A stretch of 32,132 bases of DNA from NCBI GenBank assembly GCA_000474255.1, contig BATO01000071.1, positions 1 to 32,132 of the forward strand, in the 5' to 3' direction. The position numbers were made by a program, and so were the translations under genes. Position 1 is the stretch's first letter. Each line of letters starts with the position of its first letter. The notes beneath the pieces are model-generated. The model was not told the origin of the DNA. It searched no databases and saw only the letters and a program-made list of their open reading frames with translations. This document shows, piece after piece, positions 18,598 to 24,714 of the stretch. This DNA comes from Aquipseudomonas alcaligenes MRY13-0052. GTDB lineage: Bacteria; Pseudomonadota; Gammaproteobacteria; Pseudomonadales; Pseudomonadaceae.

Positions 18598-18674
18598 GGC
18601 TACGTAGCTCAGCTGGTTAGAGCATAGCATTCATAATGCTGGGGTCCGGGGTTCAAGTCCCTGCGTAGCCACCA
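18598..18674 (+). tRNA. tRNA-Met (elongator, anticodon CAT)
   Basis: Acceptor arms GGCTACG and CGTAGCC pair, with discriminator A and encoded CCA (18672-18674). The anticodon loop TTCATAA places CAT at 18632-18634. The sequence closely follows the elongator tRNA-Met pattern, with a paired first acceptor base, rather than initiator. In P. aeruginosa a tRNA-Met directly follows ychF, so this is probably the same locus. It marks the left edge of the accessory island. Confidence 0.96.
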
Positions 18675-18680
18675 TACAAA

Positions 18681-18710
18681 ACAAAGGGTTAGCTTCGGCT
18701 AACCCTTTGT
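18681..18710 (+). terminator. tRNA-Met terminator hairpin
   Basis: A perfect 13-base stem ACAAAGGGTTAGC (18681-18693) / GCTAACCCTTTGT (18698-18710) carries a TTCG tetraloop. Only a short, interrupted T-run follows (GCTTTCT). Confidence 0.82.
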
Positions 18711-19220: not shown

Positions 19221-19290
19221 ATGACGTAATATTCGTCATCCGAGCCAATCATACATGACGAAATATTCGGCACAACGAAATATTCGTCAA
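19221..19290. promoter_or_regulatory. Three-site palindromic operator array
   Basis: Three 19-base sites, at 19221-19239, 19255-19273 and 19272-19290, share the core CGNAATATTCG. The first has complete ATGACG / CGTCAT arms; the second and third have one or two changes per arm. Start-to-start distances are 34 and 17 bases, the latter so close that neighbouring sites overlap by two bases. The array fills the gap between divergent genes, the layout of a phage immunity or control region. Confidence 0.78.
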
Positions 19291-19311
19291 TTTTATAGAT
19301 GGTTTTTGAAT

Positions 19312-19554
19312 ATGGAAGATCGGCTCAGGGAGGTTGTAAGGCATATAGGCCCTTCAACCTTGGCGAAAAATACGACCATCAGTGATCGACGTCGGTGGCA
19401 AACCGTGGCGACTGACTTCAGAACGAAAACCCGGGTCGAAGACCTGGCAGCGCTGCTGGCCATCTACCCCGAGTACGAGCTTTACATCATCCACGGCGAG
19501 ACCGACCTGGCCCGGGGGCAGATCAGCCCGGGCGTTACCGATGCAGATGTGTAG
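19312..19554 (+). CDS. Small CI/Cro-like DNA-binding regulator (module 1)
   Basis: An 80-residue protein that I read as a helix-turn-helix regulator of phage type. An earlier in-frame ATG at 19255 exists, but it would put two of three operators inside the gene. The ATG at 19312 gives a length and N-terminus that align with the regulator at 24451. The two share RWQ at the start of the recognition part, then R....L..L...P.Y...I.G...L..GQ.SP to the end. No strong ribosome site is visible, as often seen for repressors expressed at low level. It is divergent from the unknown gene at 18798-19166. Its likely role is to bind the AATATTCG sites and set the balance between the two directions. Confidence 0.7.
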   Translation: MEDRLREVVRHIGPSTLAKNTTISDRRRWQTVATDFRTKTRVEDLAALLAIYPEYELYIIHGETDLARGQISPGVTDADV

Positions 19555-19624
19555 TTGGCGGGGGACGAAGCGGGGAGTAGCGGGGTTTAGGCGAGCGGGA
19601 TGACCTCCAGGAGGGAGGTAGTAA

Positions 19625-19744
19625 GTGAGCATCAAGGAAGAGCGGGTCAGATCACTTGCTTCGATCGTCGGCATGGATCGCTTGGTCCGTGAGACGCCCA
19701 TTGGCTCCAGCAGATTGCGTACCGTGATCTACAACAATCAGTAA
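19625..19744 (+). CDS. Short ORF resembling the N-terminal half of the module 1 regulator
   Basis: A 39-codon frame begins with GTG at 19625 behind a very strong Shine-Dalgarno stretch (AGGAGGGAGGT, 19609-19619). The product starts MSIKEERVRSLASIVG and ends SSRLRTVIYNNQ. It lines up with the first half of the regulator just upstream (RLREVVRHIG ... RRRWQTV) and stops where that protein continues into its second half. It is either a truncated third paralogue or a real small protein that could dimerise with the regulator. The rest of 19555-19854 holds no other gene I can support; a weak AAGAGC/GCTCTT hairpin sits at 19744-19762. Confidence 0.5.
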   Translation: MSIKEERVRSLASIVGMDRLVRETPIGSSRLRTVIYNNQ

Positions 19745-19854
19745 AGAGCTCAGCAGGCTCTTCCGTCCCTACCGGCCTCACTCAACTAGGACTTGAGCTA
19801 ATCCAGACAAGGGGGAGAATTTAAAACACACAGACATGCCAGTAATAGTTTTGG

Positions 19855-21474
19855 CTACTTTTTCGGCTTAATTTTCTTTTTCATATGCACAGTCGGGTCG
19901 ACCTCAATCTTGCATAACTCTACCGTGTAGCCTAAAGCACGCAGCGTCCGAAGCGAATTTTTAAGTGTCACCTTAGAGAAGAAAGGCAGCTCCTTCGGTA
20001 TATTCTTGTCTGTAGCAATAGCATATACAACCTTAAATTTTCGCGCATCCGGCATAGCCTTACTGTCGGCCAGTTTCAAAATCGCCGGCAGTTTACCATT
20101 AAGCTTTTCTCGAAACTCTACATCACGAACAAAAACCTCTGCCGCAACACACCCTTGAGCGAAAAGATGACTAAGCGTACTTGAGCTACGATAATACTTG
20201 ACGTGAATAAAGTCATTTACATCCCTTACAAGATCACAGAATTCTATCTTATCGTAGGCACCGCCTACTCTGACATTTTTCTTGTCCATTTTCAGATAAT
20301 TACTATCTATAGACGCAACATAATCATTGTACTCACCCTCAGAGTCGTGAATATATTTAGGCATAACATGCCCATATGACTTTAAATCAAAAAAATAGTT
20401 ATCTATCTTGTTAACAAAGTCCCGATCAACTCGATACCAAATACCATTACGCAGAATATAGCACTCTCCCCCAACCGTTAACTCCGCATACAAACACCTA
20501 TATGCACTCCAGCTTTTCACATCTCTATATTCACTGTCATTGACATGAACCGTAGTCAATCTCAATGAATCAGTGGTAATAGCCAGCCCCTTCCCTGCCA
20601 TATGGCCGAACAAATCATCCATATCAAGCACAACATGCCTAGGCGTATTGGGATACATGTCAAAGGAGTATCCAACCTGAGACTCCCAATCAACGACTTC
20701 AGGCTCTCCCACCCAAAAACCTGCTGTATTCCCAGCCTTTAAGTAGTCATCTAGTTCGAGATCAAGCAATTGATTTGTTTCTGCATCCCTAATTCGGTAT
20801 ACATTATCAACCCACTCGAACTGCTCCGGCAGTTTCTTTTTATACCTAACAATCGCCTCTGTTAGGATCGCCACCAAACCATCCACATCTACAGACACAA
20901 CTAACGTCAGCGCATCCCTACCAGTAACATGCGACCCAAATACATCCACTATTGAAACGCCAGTTACGGCATATAACATCTCTGTTTCAGAGTCTATATG
21001 AAGATCAAATATATCAACCTCCCTTGAACTTTGAGTCCTAGAATTCAAGGGATTGTGATCATAGCTTGCCTTATCCAAGCTTCTAAGTTTGTCCGGATCA
21101 ACAGAGTTCAACGTCACTCGCAAACCAAAATCCCTTTCAATTTGCTCATTTTGAAGAAGGTGAAATCCAGAACCAAAAGTGAGAACAAACTTACTGCCCA
21201 GCACAGAAACTATAAGCGCAGCGCCAACCGTGCTGGAGTCCCCAAAAGCATCGCCCGGAACCTCACGTCTCGAAGTAAAGAACTTCGTCCAAGGCGGGGA
21301 GTGCTTCGGCGGTTCAACTTTTATATAAAGCAAAGCAGAGTCACACCCCTCAACCGTGAGCTCTATAGGAGCCTTCGCTTTATCTAGCTTTAGAAGTGAG
21401 GAGTTCAAACACGAGGGGTCCTTAGCGAGATAAATCGAGAGGCGCTCCTTTCTTTCCTTCTTCGATTTAACCAT
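19855..21474 (-). CDS. DUF6119/TIGR04141-family protein
   Basis: A 539-residue soluble protein that I recognise as the sporadically distributed TIGR04141 (DUF6119) family. Shared landmarks are FVLTFGSGFHLL (97-107), IERDFGLRVTLNSVDP (112-127), WSAYRCLYAEL (322-332) and SSSTLSHLFAQG (430-441). The biochemical function of the family is not known to me; members are patchily distributed and often lie in variable regions beside restriction-type genes. The start at 21474 is chosen for its strong AGGGAGG site six bases upstream; an extra 11 codons are open before it. The gene is much richer in AT than the surroundings, including rare codons for Pseudomonas, a clear sign of recent transfer. It lies 97 bases downstream of the Mrr-like endonuclease on the same strand. 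Confidence 0.82.
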   Translation of the reverse strand: MVKSKKERKERLSIYLAKDPSCLNSSLLKLDKAKAPIELTVEGCDSALLYIKVEPPKHSPPWTKFFTSRREVPGDAFGDSSTVGAALIVSVLGSKFVLTFGSGFHLLQNEQIERDFGLRVTLNSVDPDKLRSLDKASYDHNPLNSRTQSSREVDIFDLHIDSETEMLYAVTGVSIVDVFGSHVTGRDALTLVVSVDVDGLVAILTEAIVRYKKKLPEQFEWVDNVYRIRDAETNQLLDLELDDYLKAGNTAGFWVGEPEVVDWESQVGYSFDMYPNTPRHVVLDMDDLFGHMAGKGLAITTDSLRLTTVHVNDSEYRDVKSWSAYRCLYAELTVGGECYILRNGIWYRVDRDFVNKIDNYFFDLKSYGHVMPKYIHDSEGEYNDYVASIDSNYLKMDKKNVRVGGAYDKIEFCDLVRDVNDFIHVKYYRSSSTLSHLFAQGCVAAEVFVRDVEFREKLNGKLPAILKLADSKAMPDARKFKVVYAIATDKNIPKELPFFSKVTLKNSLRTLRALGYTVELCKIEVDPTVHMKKKIKPKK

Positions 21475-21571
21475 TTTGCCCTCCCTAGAGAGAAGAACTA
21501 AGAGCATACCTAGAGGCAGCTAGACTGCATCTCGGTGAAGTCAATAACCTCTACTCAGTGCCTAGCCTGGA

Positions 21572-22426
21572 TTATTCTTTTAAATTTTCCAGGTGGCGTA
21601 TACCTCTGCAGGCAGGATATTGCGAGCAGCCCCAAAACTGATTTCCCAAATTCACCCCACGCTTAGCTGTACGCACAACCATAGAGCCCCCACAAACCGG
21701 ACAGAGCGGGATGGTAGGTTGCGATTTAGGCTTTACGTACTGACGTGTAGAGGATTGCGAAGCAATGGAACGATTAGCAATCCAGTGTTTCAGTATGGCT
21801 CCATCAATCAATTGAATATTTCGTCCTTGGGCGAACGTCTTAGCCTCCTCGGTATAGGTACCGGAGGTGACAATGAAGCCCCCTGCTGCTCCCTCAGCAG
21901 CCATGACACCGAAGAACTCGCGGACGACTGTTACTCCAACCTTGAGGGCCTTCCATTGCTTGCATTGAACTAAGTATTTGTCCGTGCCCAAGTGCAGCTC
22001 CAGATCAACGCCACCGTCCGGTCCGTTGCCGCCTCTCTCGGTAACGCTGAAACCCTTGCGCCTGAATGCTTCGCCCACCAGCAGCTCGAACTCGCGCCAG
22101 CTGATGCCATCCAGCGTCTTAGCCGGTTGAGTGGCTTCTGCCACATCCTTGAATAGCTTCTTGCGCTTGGCCCGCCCAGCAATGGAACCAATTGCACCAA
22201 GGGCAAAGATGAAAGGCACGAAGTACTGGAACGCCATGGCAAGGCCCCGGAACATGGCACCGGTCATATCGGGTCTGTGCGGGTCGACAGGGGGGATTGG
22301 GCTGGTGGCGTATCCGTGGAGCAAGTACCAGGACACGAACGCAACTAACAGGCTTACCCACCAGGGCAGCAAGGTGGCGAGGGTGAAGAGGTCGTCAAAC
22401 AGGGAGGTTTTGCGGCGGCGTGCCAT
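21572..22426 (-). CDS. Membrane-anchored Mrr-type restriction endonuclease with zinc finger
   Basis: The 284-residue protein has three parts. Two hydrophobic helices (about 20-38 and 60-83) anchor it in the inner membrane. Residues 107-220 form an Mrr_cat / restriction-endonuclease-like domain with E114 (FELLVGEAF), D141 (GGVDLEL) and the QxK motif Q154-C-K156 (LVQCKQWK). A C-terminal four-cysteine finger (C242, C245, C267, C273; CPVCGGSMV ... FWGCSQYPAC) resembles topoisomerase I zinc fingers and probably binds DNA. Mrr proteins cut modified or foreign DNA. The ATG at 22426 has GGAG six bases upstream; a TTG four codons earlier is less likely. Base composition is closer to the host than that of the DUF6119 gene downstream, with which it may form an operon. 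Confidence 0.88.
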   Translation of the reverse strand: MARRRKTSLFDDLFTLATLLPWWVSLLVAFVSWYLLHGYATSPIPPVDPHRPDMTGAMFRGLAMAFQYFVPFIFALGAIGSIAGRAKRKKLFKDVAEATQPAKTLDGISWREFELLVGEAFRRKGFSVTERGGNGPDGGVDLELHLGTDKYLVQCKQWKALKVGVTVVREFFGVMAAEGAAGGFIVTSGTYTEEAKTFAQGRNIQLIDGAILKHWIANRSIASQSSTRQYVKPKSQPTIPLCPVCGGSMVVRTAKRGVNLGNQFWGCSQYPACRGIRHLENLKE

Positions 22427-22569
22427 GCCATGCTCCAATCCGATTCCATTCGTGGCAAAACGCTATGACGGACACTAGCGCGGTCCCCCATTACCCGTAA
22501 ATACCCTGGGGACATACCTTAGGCGTAGAGCCCTGACAGTGAGCCTGACCAAACCAAGGAGCGGTAACG

Positions 22570-22911
22570 ATGAAAGCAGCATCCCTCGCCCTCACCTTCC
22601 TACTTGCAGCCCTCGCGCTGCCCTCCTCCGCGGATGAATCGAAACCTCTGGCCACTCAAGCCGGAGAGGCCGTGCAGCCCTATGCCAAACAGATTGGCCA
22701 AGCCATTGACCGAACCGTGATGGAGTTCTTCGCCGGCTCCGATGGCCCTATGGGTGACGCGGCACGCAGCAATCTCAAGATGCAGGAGCAAGCCGAGCGC
22801 CAGGCTAATCGCAGCACGCGGAAGACGATGAAGGAATGCATCAAACCCGGGAACGTGATTGATGATGATGTGAAGGAGTGTATGGAGGGGTTAAGAGAGC
22901 GGGATTGGTGA
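22570..22911 (+). CDS. Small exported protein of unknown function
   Basis: A 113-residue protein with a clear signal peptide (MKAASLALTFLLAALALPSSA, cleavage near residue 21). The mature part is charged and mainly helical, with two cysteines (KECIKPG and KECMEG) spaced to form a disulfide. AAGGAG lies seven bases before the ATG. I do not recognise the family. It is divergent from the Mrr-like gene, with a 143-base gap that must hold both promoters. It could be an unrelated host gene or part of the island. Confidence 0.7.
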   Translation: MKAASLALTFLLAALALPSSADESKPLATQAGEAVQPYAKQIGQAIDRTVMEFFAGSDGPMGDAARSNLKMQEQAERQANRSTRKTMKECIKPGNVIDDDVKECMEGLRERDW

Positions 22912-23847: not shown

Positions 23848-24062
23848 CACTCCCTCACAAGATTCCGGCCACGGCGCTGCGCAAACGCGTTAAGCCCGAG
23901 CTGATCGAGGCGCCGCAACGTCTCTGCTTCATAGGCGCCCGTGTCCTGCAACGCATCCACATAACCGGTAAAGCGCATGAACTGTGCGAACGCCCGATCC
24001 GGATCCGAGTAGCGAATCCTCCGCAGAAGCAACAGCAGCTGATGGGCAGTCGTCCTATTCAT
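23847..24062 (-). CDS. Unknown 71-residue helical protein, second gene of mini-operon
   Basis: A short, highly charged, probably all-helical protein (TAHQLLLLLRRIRYSDPDRAF at its start) with no membrane segment. It overlaps the excisionase-like gene upstream by 8 bases and meets the next gene in a TGATG junction, so the three are almost certainly translated from one message. I do not recognise the family. Small proteins of this kind are common directly after the excisionase or Cor-like genes of integrated phages. Confidence 0.6.
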   Translation of the reverse strand: MNRTTAHQLLLLLRRIRYSDPDRAFAQFMRFTGYVDALQDTGAYEAETLRRLDQLGLNAFAQRRGRNLVRE

Positions 24063-24327
24063 TCGCGTAGTCCCCTGCGCTGAAGACCGTCTTGCCCTGA
24101 TCCAGGTCGCTGCGAATGCGATGGAGATTGATCACCCGACGACGCCCGATCTTCACGGTGGGGATCGTTCGAGTCTCGACCCAGCCGCGCACCACGTCCT
24201 CGGTGATCTCCTCGATGCCGCACATCTCCGCCAGGACGAGTTGAGTGCAGAACGGCGCACAACGTGCGTCGTTTATTCGTTCAGGCTTTCCATCAGCGCT
24301 GAGCCCCACTACGCCAGACTGTTCCAT
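24055..24327 (-). CDS. Excisionase/AlpA-like DNA-binding protein (HTH_17 type)
   Basis: A 90-residue protein whose second half matches the MerR-like winged helix of excisionases and AlpA regulators: ITEDVVRGWVETRTIPTVKI (41-60), then GRRRVINLHRIRSDL. Such proteins bend DNA for site-specific excision or activate phage genes. The ATG at 24327 is preceded by AGGAG at about seven bases. It is transcribed away from the small repressor-like gene at 24451 across a gap with a perfect palindrome. That is the organisation of a repressor/excisionase switch in integrated phages, including filamentous ones. No integrase gene is in the window, so the element is incomplete or the integrase has been lost. 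Confidence 0.72.
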   Translation of the reverse strand: MEQSGVVGLSADGKPERINDARCAPFCTQLVLAEMCGIEEITEDVVRGWVETRTIPTVKIGRRRVINLHRIRSDLDQGKTVFSAGDYANE

Positions 24328-24450: not shown

Positions 24451-24714
24451 ATGAGCGAAGGAATTACGCAGCGCGCCATGCAACTCTTGGAAATGGCCAG
24501 CATCACCGAATTATCAGAAGCAGGTAGTACGGGATATGTTCGCTGGCAGAACATAAAGCGTGGACGTGCTCGCCTTGGTGCTGATGAGATAGGAATACTA
24601 AGCAGAGTTTTTCCGCAGTATCAGTGGTGGTTGATCAGCGGAGATTTGCGTCTCCAAGATGGACAAACCAGCCCCGAACACGACGGCCTGATCACCCCGC
24701 CCTCCCTGGACTAG
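24451..24714 (+). CDS. Small CI/Cro-like DNA-binding regulator (module 2)
   Basis: An 87-residue protein similar to the regulator at 19312-19554. The shared segment runs from RWQNI (31-35) through R..LGADEIGILSRVFPQY and WWLISGDLRLQDGQTSP. The pattern of an N-terminal helix-turn-helix followed by a short W/Y-P-Y-W-L-G tail is common in small phage repressors of Pseudomonas. The ATG at 24451 has GGGA about eight bases upstream. It is divergent from the excisionase-like gene and probably represses it through the CGTGTAT palindrome. A CTCGGTGC/GCACCGAG hairpin (24729-24756) after the stop may end transcripts from both sides. Confidence 0.75.
   Translation: MSEGITQRAMQLLEMASITELSEAGSTGYVRWQNIKRGRARLGADEIGILSRVFPQYQWWLISGDLRLQDGQTSPEHDGLITPPSLD

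Follow-up and report, generated by a model that had tools for sequence, protein, structure and literature searches.

A DUF6119 gene and a membrane-anchored Mrr-type gene of Aquipseudomonas alcaligenes as probable separate cargo of a decayed Pf-like prophage at tRNA-Met

The two genes at the locus

The stretch of DNA considered here (the window) makes up a complete contig (G000:C167) of 32,132 nucleotides from the 6.88-Mb genome of Aquipseudomonas alcaligenes MRY13-0052. It carries on its minus strand two neighbouring genes, one encoding a DUF6119/TIGR04141 protein of 539 amino acids and the other a membrane-anchored Mrr-type protein of 284 amino acids, which had been predicted from the sequence to form a defence system. 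The DUF6119 gene (19855..21474, minus strand), the product of which is a candidate defence nuclease, was delimited by profiles, by its start with a ribosome-binding site and by a structure model; the open reading frame spans 19855-21507, and the better start is the ATG at 21474, which is preceded by AGGGAGGG. Its product covers the whole of the Pfam model DUF6119 (PF19614; 2e-131, 439.7 bits against a cut-off of 27) and matches TIGR04141 over its full length (5e-161, 536.6 bits, cut-off 35), which confirms the family assignment made in the original prediction.

The Mrr gene (21572..22426, minus strand), for which an alternative TTG start at 22438 is likewise open, encodes a protein with a Mrr_cat match at residues 106-216 (2e-31, 108.9 bits against a cut-off of 21), a C-terminal C4 zinc ribbon (Zn_ribbon_Top1, 3e-9, residues 241-279), a match to phrog_33422 (1e-81), and two hydrophobic stretches beginning near residues 13 and 61. 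The Mrr_cat domain contains the catalytic D141 and the QxK motif (Q154, K156) of Mrr-type endonucleases, these residues being located where they had been claimed, and the predicted architecture of two membrane helices and a zinc finger is equally borne out. The Pfam scan of this protein returned just Mrr_cat, a related model of an inactive restriction endonuclease (REase) and zinc ribbons. A sequence search found no related solved structure for either protein.

Downstream of the Mrr gene, the DUF6119 gene follows after 97 bases, counted from the start at 21474, so that the description of the pair as codirectional and 97 bases apart was right in both coordinates and gap. A consensus scan of 19300-22900 found no promoter- or terminator-like site in this gap, and co-transcription of the two genes is therefore possible, to judge from the sequence. 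Their compositions are 0.431 for both the guanine-plus-cytosine (GC) content and its value at third codon positions (GC3) in the DUF6119 gene, and 0.551 and 0.618, respectively, in the Mrr gene, the GC content of the window being 0.633.

A Pf-like prophage remnant at tRNA-Met

The phage-like control modules that had been said to flank the two genes are real, and they are of Pf type. On the near side of the DUF6119 gene there is a small repressor-like regulator (19255..19554, plus strand; phrog_147, 2e-8), with 25% identity to the PfAC01b repressor (E 3e-8). Beyond the Mrr gene and adjoining the cargo slot lies a Pf ORF4-like gene of 113 residues (22570..22911, plus strand; phrog_5121, 7e-48) with eight Pf-type record matches at 60-69%, among them PfAC01b ORF4 (68% over 92 residues). 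It is followed by an excisionase of the Pf1 orf90 family (24055..24327, minus strand; phrog_2951, 1e-44), which matches 11 phage records at 60-80% identity, ten among the matches listed being of Pf type (65.6-67.8%, Pf1 included), and by a second Pf-type repressor-like regulator (24451..24714, plus strand; phrog_147, 8e-17; 42% to the PfAC01b repressor). A further 68 bases at 19670-19737, between the first regulator and the DUF6119 gene, are 76% identical to a repressor-like gene of a related locus (L105), which suggests layered prophage remnants.

The island lies at a tRNA-Met gene (18598..18674, plus strand, called by ARAGORN), the last 46 bases of which (18629-18674) form its core, similar to a phage attachment site (att). 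The 46-base stretch recurs further along in another genome of the same species, G057, and in G005; a copy of 18629-18690 (63 bp, 94%) is found in G057 at L073:8957-9019, and one of 60 bp at 85% lies at L105:10211-10270. The published att of one Pf group is a 46-bp fragment of tRNA-Met, according to the available extract of PMC7549136.

The island thus shares with the Pf-type filamentous phages (Inoviridae; PfAC01b, PfAC20, 62-2) the excisionase, the repressor, ORF4, the 46-bp tRNA-Met att core and a cargo slot beside ORF4, which in the named phages holds a retron, a cytosine methylase with an ATPase, or Rad50/OLD genes. It differs from them in its cargo and in the lack of integrase (int), replication (rep), zot and coat genes, for none of which tblastn at E 1e-3 gave a match in the window, and in having a single tRNA-Met end, with no second copy of the att-like core in the window. 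This makes the island a remnant, left at tRNA-Met by a Pf-like filamentous prophage, and not itself a prophage.

Exchange of cargo in relatives

Orthologues of the Mrr protein at 71-74% are present in four congeners (G005, G006, G011, G012), all of them without DUF6119. Beside the Mrr gene these carry an AriA-like ATPase (L102), an AriA-like gene with a weak AriB-like one, which makes a PARIS-like pair (L103), two unknown genes (L104), or no large gene (L105). A gene of about 110 codons lies directly downstream of the Mrr gene at L102:6856-7191, L104:8318-8656 and L105:7742-8068, and L103 shows a trace of it; where these three congeners carry this gene, DUF6119 is found in the window. The BLAST range in L105 contains a stop codon. 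In the same-species genome G057, the interval from tRNA-Met to the Pf excisionase (L073:3073-8667) holds a retron-type reverse transcriptase (RT_V, 4e-78) and a Septu pair (PtuA 6e-134, PtuB 2e-73); of the Mrr gene there is no more than a 105-residue piece, and DUF6119 is absent. In another genus, the Mrr gene of three Pf-type loci (L232-L234) stands beside ParA and SIR2, a cyclase with Cap15 (CBASS), and a ParA-like gene.

The closest DUF6119 relative found (71%) is itself cargo of a Pf-like prophage, in Pseudomonas sp. MRCP1333 (L124:6385-17586), where the Pf matches comprise int (85%, ending at the locus edge), rep (80%), zot (41%), gp6 (36%) and part of coaA (42%), as well as DUF5447, the Pf excisionase and the repressor. 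The DUF6119 gene adjoins ShosA (1.7e-65) and ShosT (6.7e-19), and no Mrr gene is present within the 17.6 kb examined. On these comparisons, both genes of the window look like exchangeable cargo. A known Pf-borne defence is KKP in Pf6 (PMC11341870, in the extract available), and this was the only case of Pf cargo as a defence slot found among the literature titles listed.

Co-occurrence of the two genes

The distribution of the genes was followed in 398 genomes of the family, sampled the same way twice, once per gene, both draws being assumed to hold identical genomes, as the listed handles suggest. The Mrr protein, counted as present at E 1e-20 or better and partial in some cases, was found in 63 of these genomes and DUF6119 in 21 (20 above the family cut-off and one below). 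Both genes occur in four genomes (G000, G145, G161, G293), with 3.3 expected and a P of 0.43 for at least four; they are neighbours in the window genome only, for in G145 some 580 kb separate them and in G161 and G293 they are on different contigs.

The surroundings of DUF6119 genes were then considered in 110 other loci, of which at least four are duplicates and several are shortened by contig ends. They comprise 81 loci, taken with flanks of up to 8 kb (the best 80 of 157 relatives from genome_contigs and a single viral contig), and a further 29, in one of which the DUF6119 match falls below the cut-off. No homologue of the membrane-anchored Mrr protein lies near DUF6119 in either set. The recurrent co-occurrence beyond chance on which the prediction had been made to depend beforehand was thus not found (four of 398 against 3.3, and none of the 110), and the dedicated two-gene system was rejected on these grounds. 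The candidate defence system is accordingly unsupported as a pair. A defence reading of each gene singly is plausible and gains support from the known defence systems that occupy the slot in relatives and from the nuclease-like domain of DUF6119.

DUF6119 as a predicted nuclease

The structure model of the DUF6119 protein (pLDDT 90, pTM 0.85) includes an N-terminal part with a weak RdgC-like fold (residues 9-215; 20830..21450, minus strand) and a C-terminal domain similar to PD-(D/E)XK enzymes (residues 360-532; 19879..20397, minus strand), for which a second look at the Foldseek ranking shows nuclease folds heading the structural matches. The modelled elements of the latter are a helix at 379-389, strands at 409-417 and 421-427 and a helix at 431-450. 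Its best structural matches, EndoMS/NucS, HamA (Hachiman) and SduA (Shedu), appear to have in common with it a helix-strand-strand-strand-helix core with conserved D, K and Q. The catalytic residues of PD-(D/E)XK enzymes follow the order E, D, (D/E/Q)xK and Q. In a count of 116 DUF6119 sequences that takes in the window and four duplicates, E379, E411, D414, H424, K426 and Q440 are present in all 116 and D397 in 115; E379, D414, K426 and Q440 thus fit this order without exception, but His424 occupies the usual acidic or Gln position. Since the protein has a nuclease-like domain of its own, it is more likely an effector than a sensor of the Mrr protein; a sensing or regulating role had been suggested for it.

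The DUF6119/TIGR04141 models of a "sporadically distributed protein" carry no function; the nuclease-like reading and the R-M (restriction-modification) and Pf-cargo settings are contributed by the present analysis. The open-access library searched yielded no description of the family, DUF6119 turning up only in a paper on wheat MADS-box genes and TIGR04141 nowhere, with subscription papers mostly, and bioRxiv entirely, outside the search. Two further settings may be recorded. In two genera (L098:4560-7963 and L099:4631-8034, with domains scanned in the latter only), two radical-SAM genes, which we take to be hxs-like, and a gene with a peptidoglycan-binding domain lie directly upstream of DUF6119. 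In phage vB_PaeS-D14B (L121:5890-8571) the gene, annotated as hypothetical, adjoins the integrase gene near the end of the phage genome.

DUF6119 in restriction-modification loci

Relatives of the window gene are embedded in R-M operons. The order hsdS-DUF6119-hsdR is seen on four plasmids, with gene ends overlapping or abutting, and type I R-M genes lie within 6 kb in seven of 19 plasmid or phage regions with annotation (21 were viewed, two of which had none). In operons of genome assemblies, the gene families of which were set by clustering and profiles, DUF6119 follows an hsdS-type gene in five loci (L095, L152, L178, L181, L194), L152 having been checked protein by protein. In two Neisseria genomes (L160:5095-15081, L162:4963-16234) it stands between an SNF2-type helicase and an N6/N4 DNA methylase, possibly as part of a non-type-I restriction system. 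None of the ten open reading frames scanned around the DUF6119 gene of the window has an Hsd domain, and this gene, unlike some of its relatives, is not inside an hsd operon.

On a FastTree tree of 112 rows (four having been dropped beforehand) with long branches, R-M linkage, an author-assigned label of 21 rows that covers loci with R-M genes as near neighbours as well as operons, needs 13 changes, at least 11 of them forced on well-supported branches, and has therefore arisen or been lost repeatedly. In the extract available of PMC2610378, PrrC likewise stands as an additional effector gene in linkage with a type I R-M locus; PrrC and RloC are there anticodon nucleases with an ABC ATPase part, and no domain of this sort came up when DUF6119 was scanned against Pfam.

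The Mrr protein and known membrane-bound nucleases

In comparison with Mrr-type (type IV) restriction endonucleases, with which it has the Mrr_cat domain and its D141, Q154 and K156 in common, the Mrr protein of the window adds the two N-terminal hydrophobic stretches and the C-terminal zinc ribbon. The principle of a membrane-anchored nuclease is shared with SNIPE, a membrane-bound anti-phage nuclease that combines a single membrane helix with DUF4041 and a GIY-YIG nuclease; the main text of the SNIPE paper, as far as available, is without the word Mrr (PMC13190303), and neither of these two SNIPE domains was found in the Mrr protein by the Pfam scan. The suggested action of the nuclease on DNA that enters through the inner membrane thus has a precedent in SNIPE, by analogy with which the Mrr protein may be a guard of this membrane.

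Interpretation and alternatives

The two genes are probably separate cargo in an accessory slot of a decayed Pf-like prophage at tRNA-Met and no dedicated two-gene system, with DUF6119 most likely being a stand-alone defence (or superinfection-blocking) DNA nuclease and the Mrr protein a separate membrane-anchored nuclease. The N-terminal half of DUF6119 would serve for DNA binding and its C-terminal PD-(D/E)XK-like domain for cleavage by means of an unusual D...HxK active site (E379, D414, H424, K426, Q440), the protein recognizing incoming DNA alone or working with the restriction complex in R-M operons; in other lineages it has been built into type I and other R-M operons as an accessory subunit. 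The Mrr protein would act independently of it, as a restriction-type nuclease anchored in the membrane; its gene recurs in Pf-type islands beside varying defence systems. It is possible, if somewhat doubtful, that DUF6119 represents an undescribed class of defence nuclease in which an RdgC-like, DNA-encircling half is joined to the D...HxK nuclease, and which is protective alone in prophages and islands and often recruited as a fourth subunit between HsdS and HsdR and beside other DNA methyltransferases.

A generic Mrr_cat-type protein is encoded in three of the 81 DUF6119 loci (L148, L169, L142), of which L148 is the sole close case, its gene lying downstream on the opposite strand and matching Mrr_cat and the inactive-REase model; these cases favour a loose association, which is judged accidental. 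Among the 105 distinct loci left after four duplicates were dropped, any R-M match in the fetched stretch occurs in 27 (P 0.04 against the Mrr control), and at least two Hsd subunits are found in 15, as against two of 27 Mrr control loci (P 0.52), in a count biased towards the DUF6119 side by profiles built from DUF6119 neighbours. As loci with at least two Hsd subunits are no commoner than in the control, proximity to R-M genes is weakened as proof of an R-M role.

A true two-gene defence system, in which DUF6119 senses or licenses the membrane-anchored Mrr nuclease, would agree with the codirectional arrangement across the short gap and with the defence genes carried by the slot in relatives. 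It is nonetheless very improbable, given the lack of association among the 398 genomes, the absence of the pair from every other fetched locus, the finding of an orthologue of either gene alone in islands of this kind, the differing base composition of the genes and the nuclease-like site that DUF6119 has of its own. The tight hsdS-DUF6119-hsdR operons and the weak RdgC-like N-terminal match could alternatively be accounted for by a non-nuclease R-M regulator or DNA-binding accessory (an RdgC-like clamp with a nuclease-like scaffold), by which host DNA would be controlled or protected; this is rather unlikely, as the metal-site-like residues are conserved near-completely in solo and R-M-linked members, which is unexpected for a pure scaffold, and 59 of 109 loci, with the window counted, have no operon-like neighbour of DUF6119 at all. 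The presence of DUF6119 on plasmids (32 records), on a phage beside an integrase and in a Pf-like prophage would also suit an anti-restriction or phage-fitness gene of mobile elements in place of a host defence gene, but such a role is improbable, since R-M genes nearby and DUF6119 genes within R-M operons suit a restriction partner better than an anti-restriction gene.

Implications

With the interpretation as separate cargo, a false two-gene system gives way to two single-gene candidates that can be tested, both in a recognizable Pf cargo slot, what is new being DUF6119 as a candidate R-M-linked nuclease and the slot itself. The swapping of Septu, CBASS, a PARIS-like pair, ShosTA, Mrr and DUF6119 beside related Pf genes suggests that the cargo slots of filamentous prophages are a good hunting ground for new defence genes. 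If the nuclease reading is true, a family named just for its patchy distribution would be a defence nuclease with an unusual active site that has repeatedly been recruited into restriction systems.
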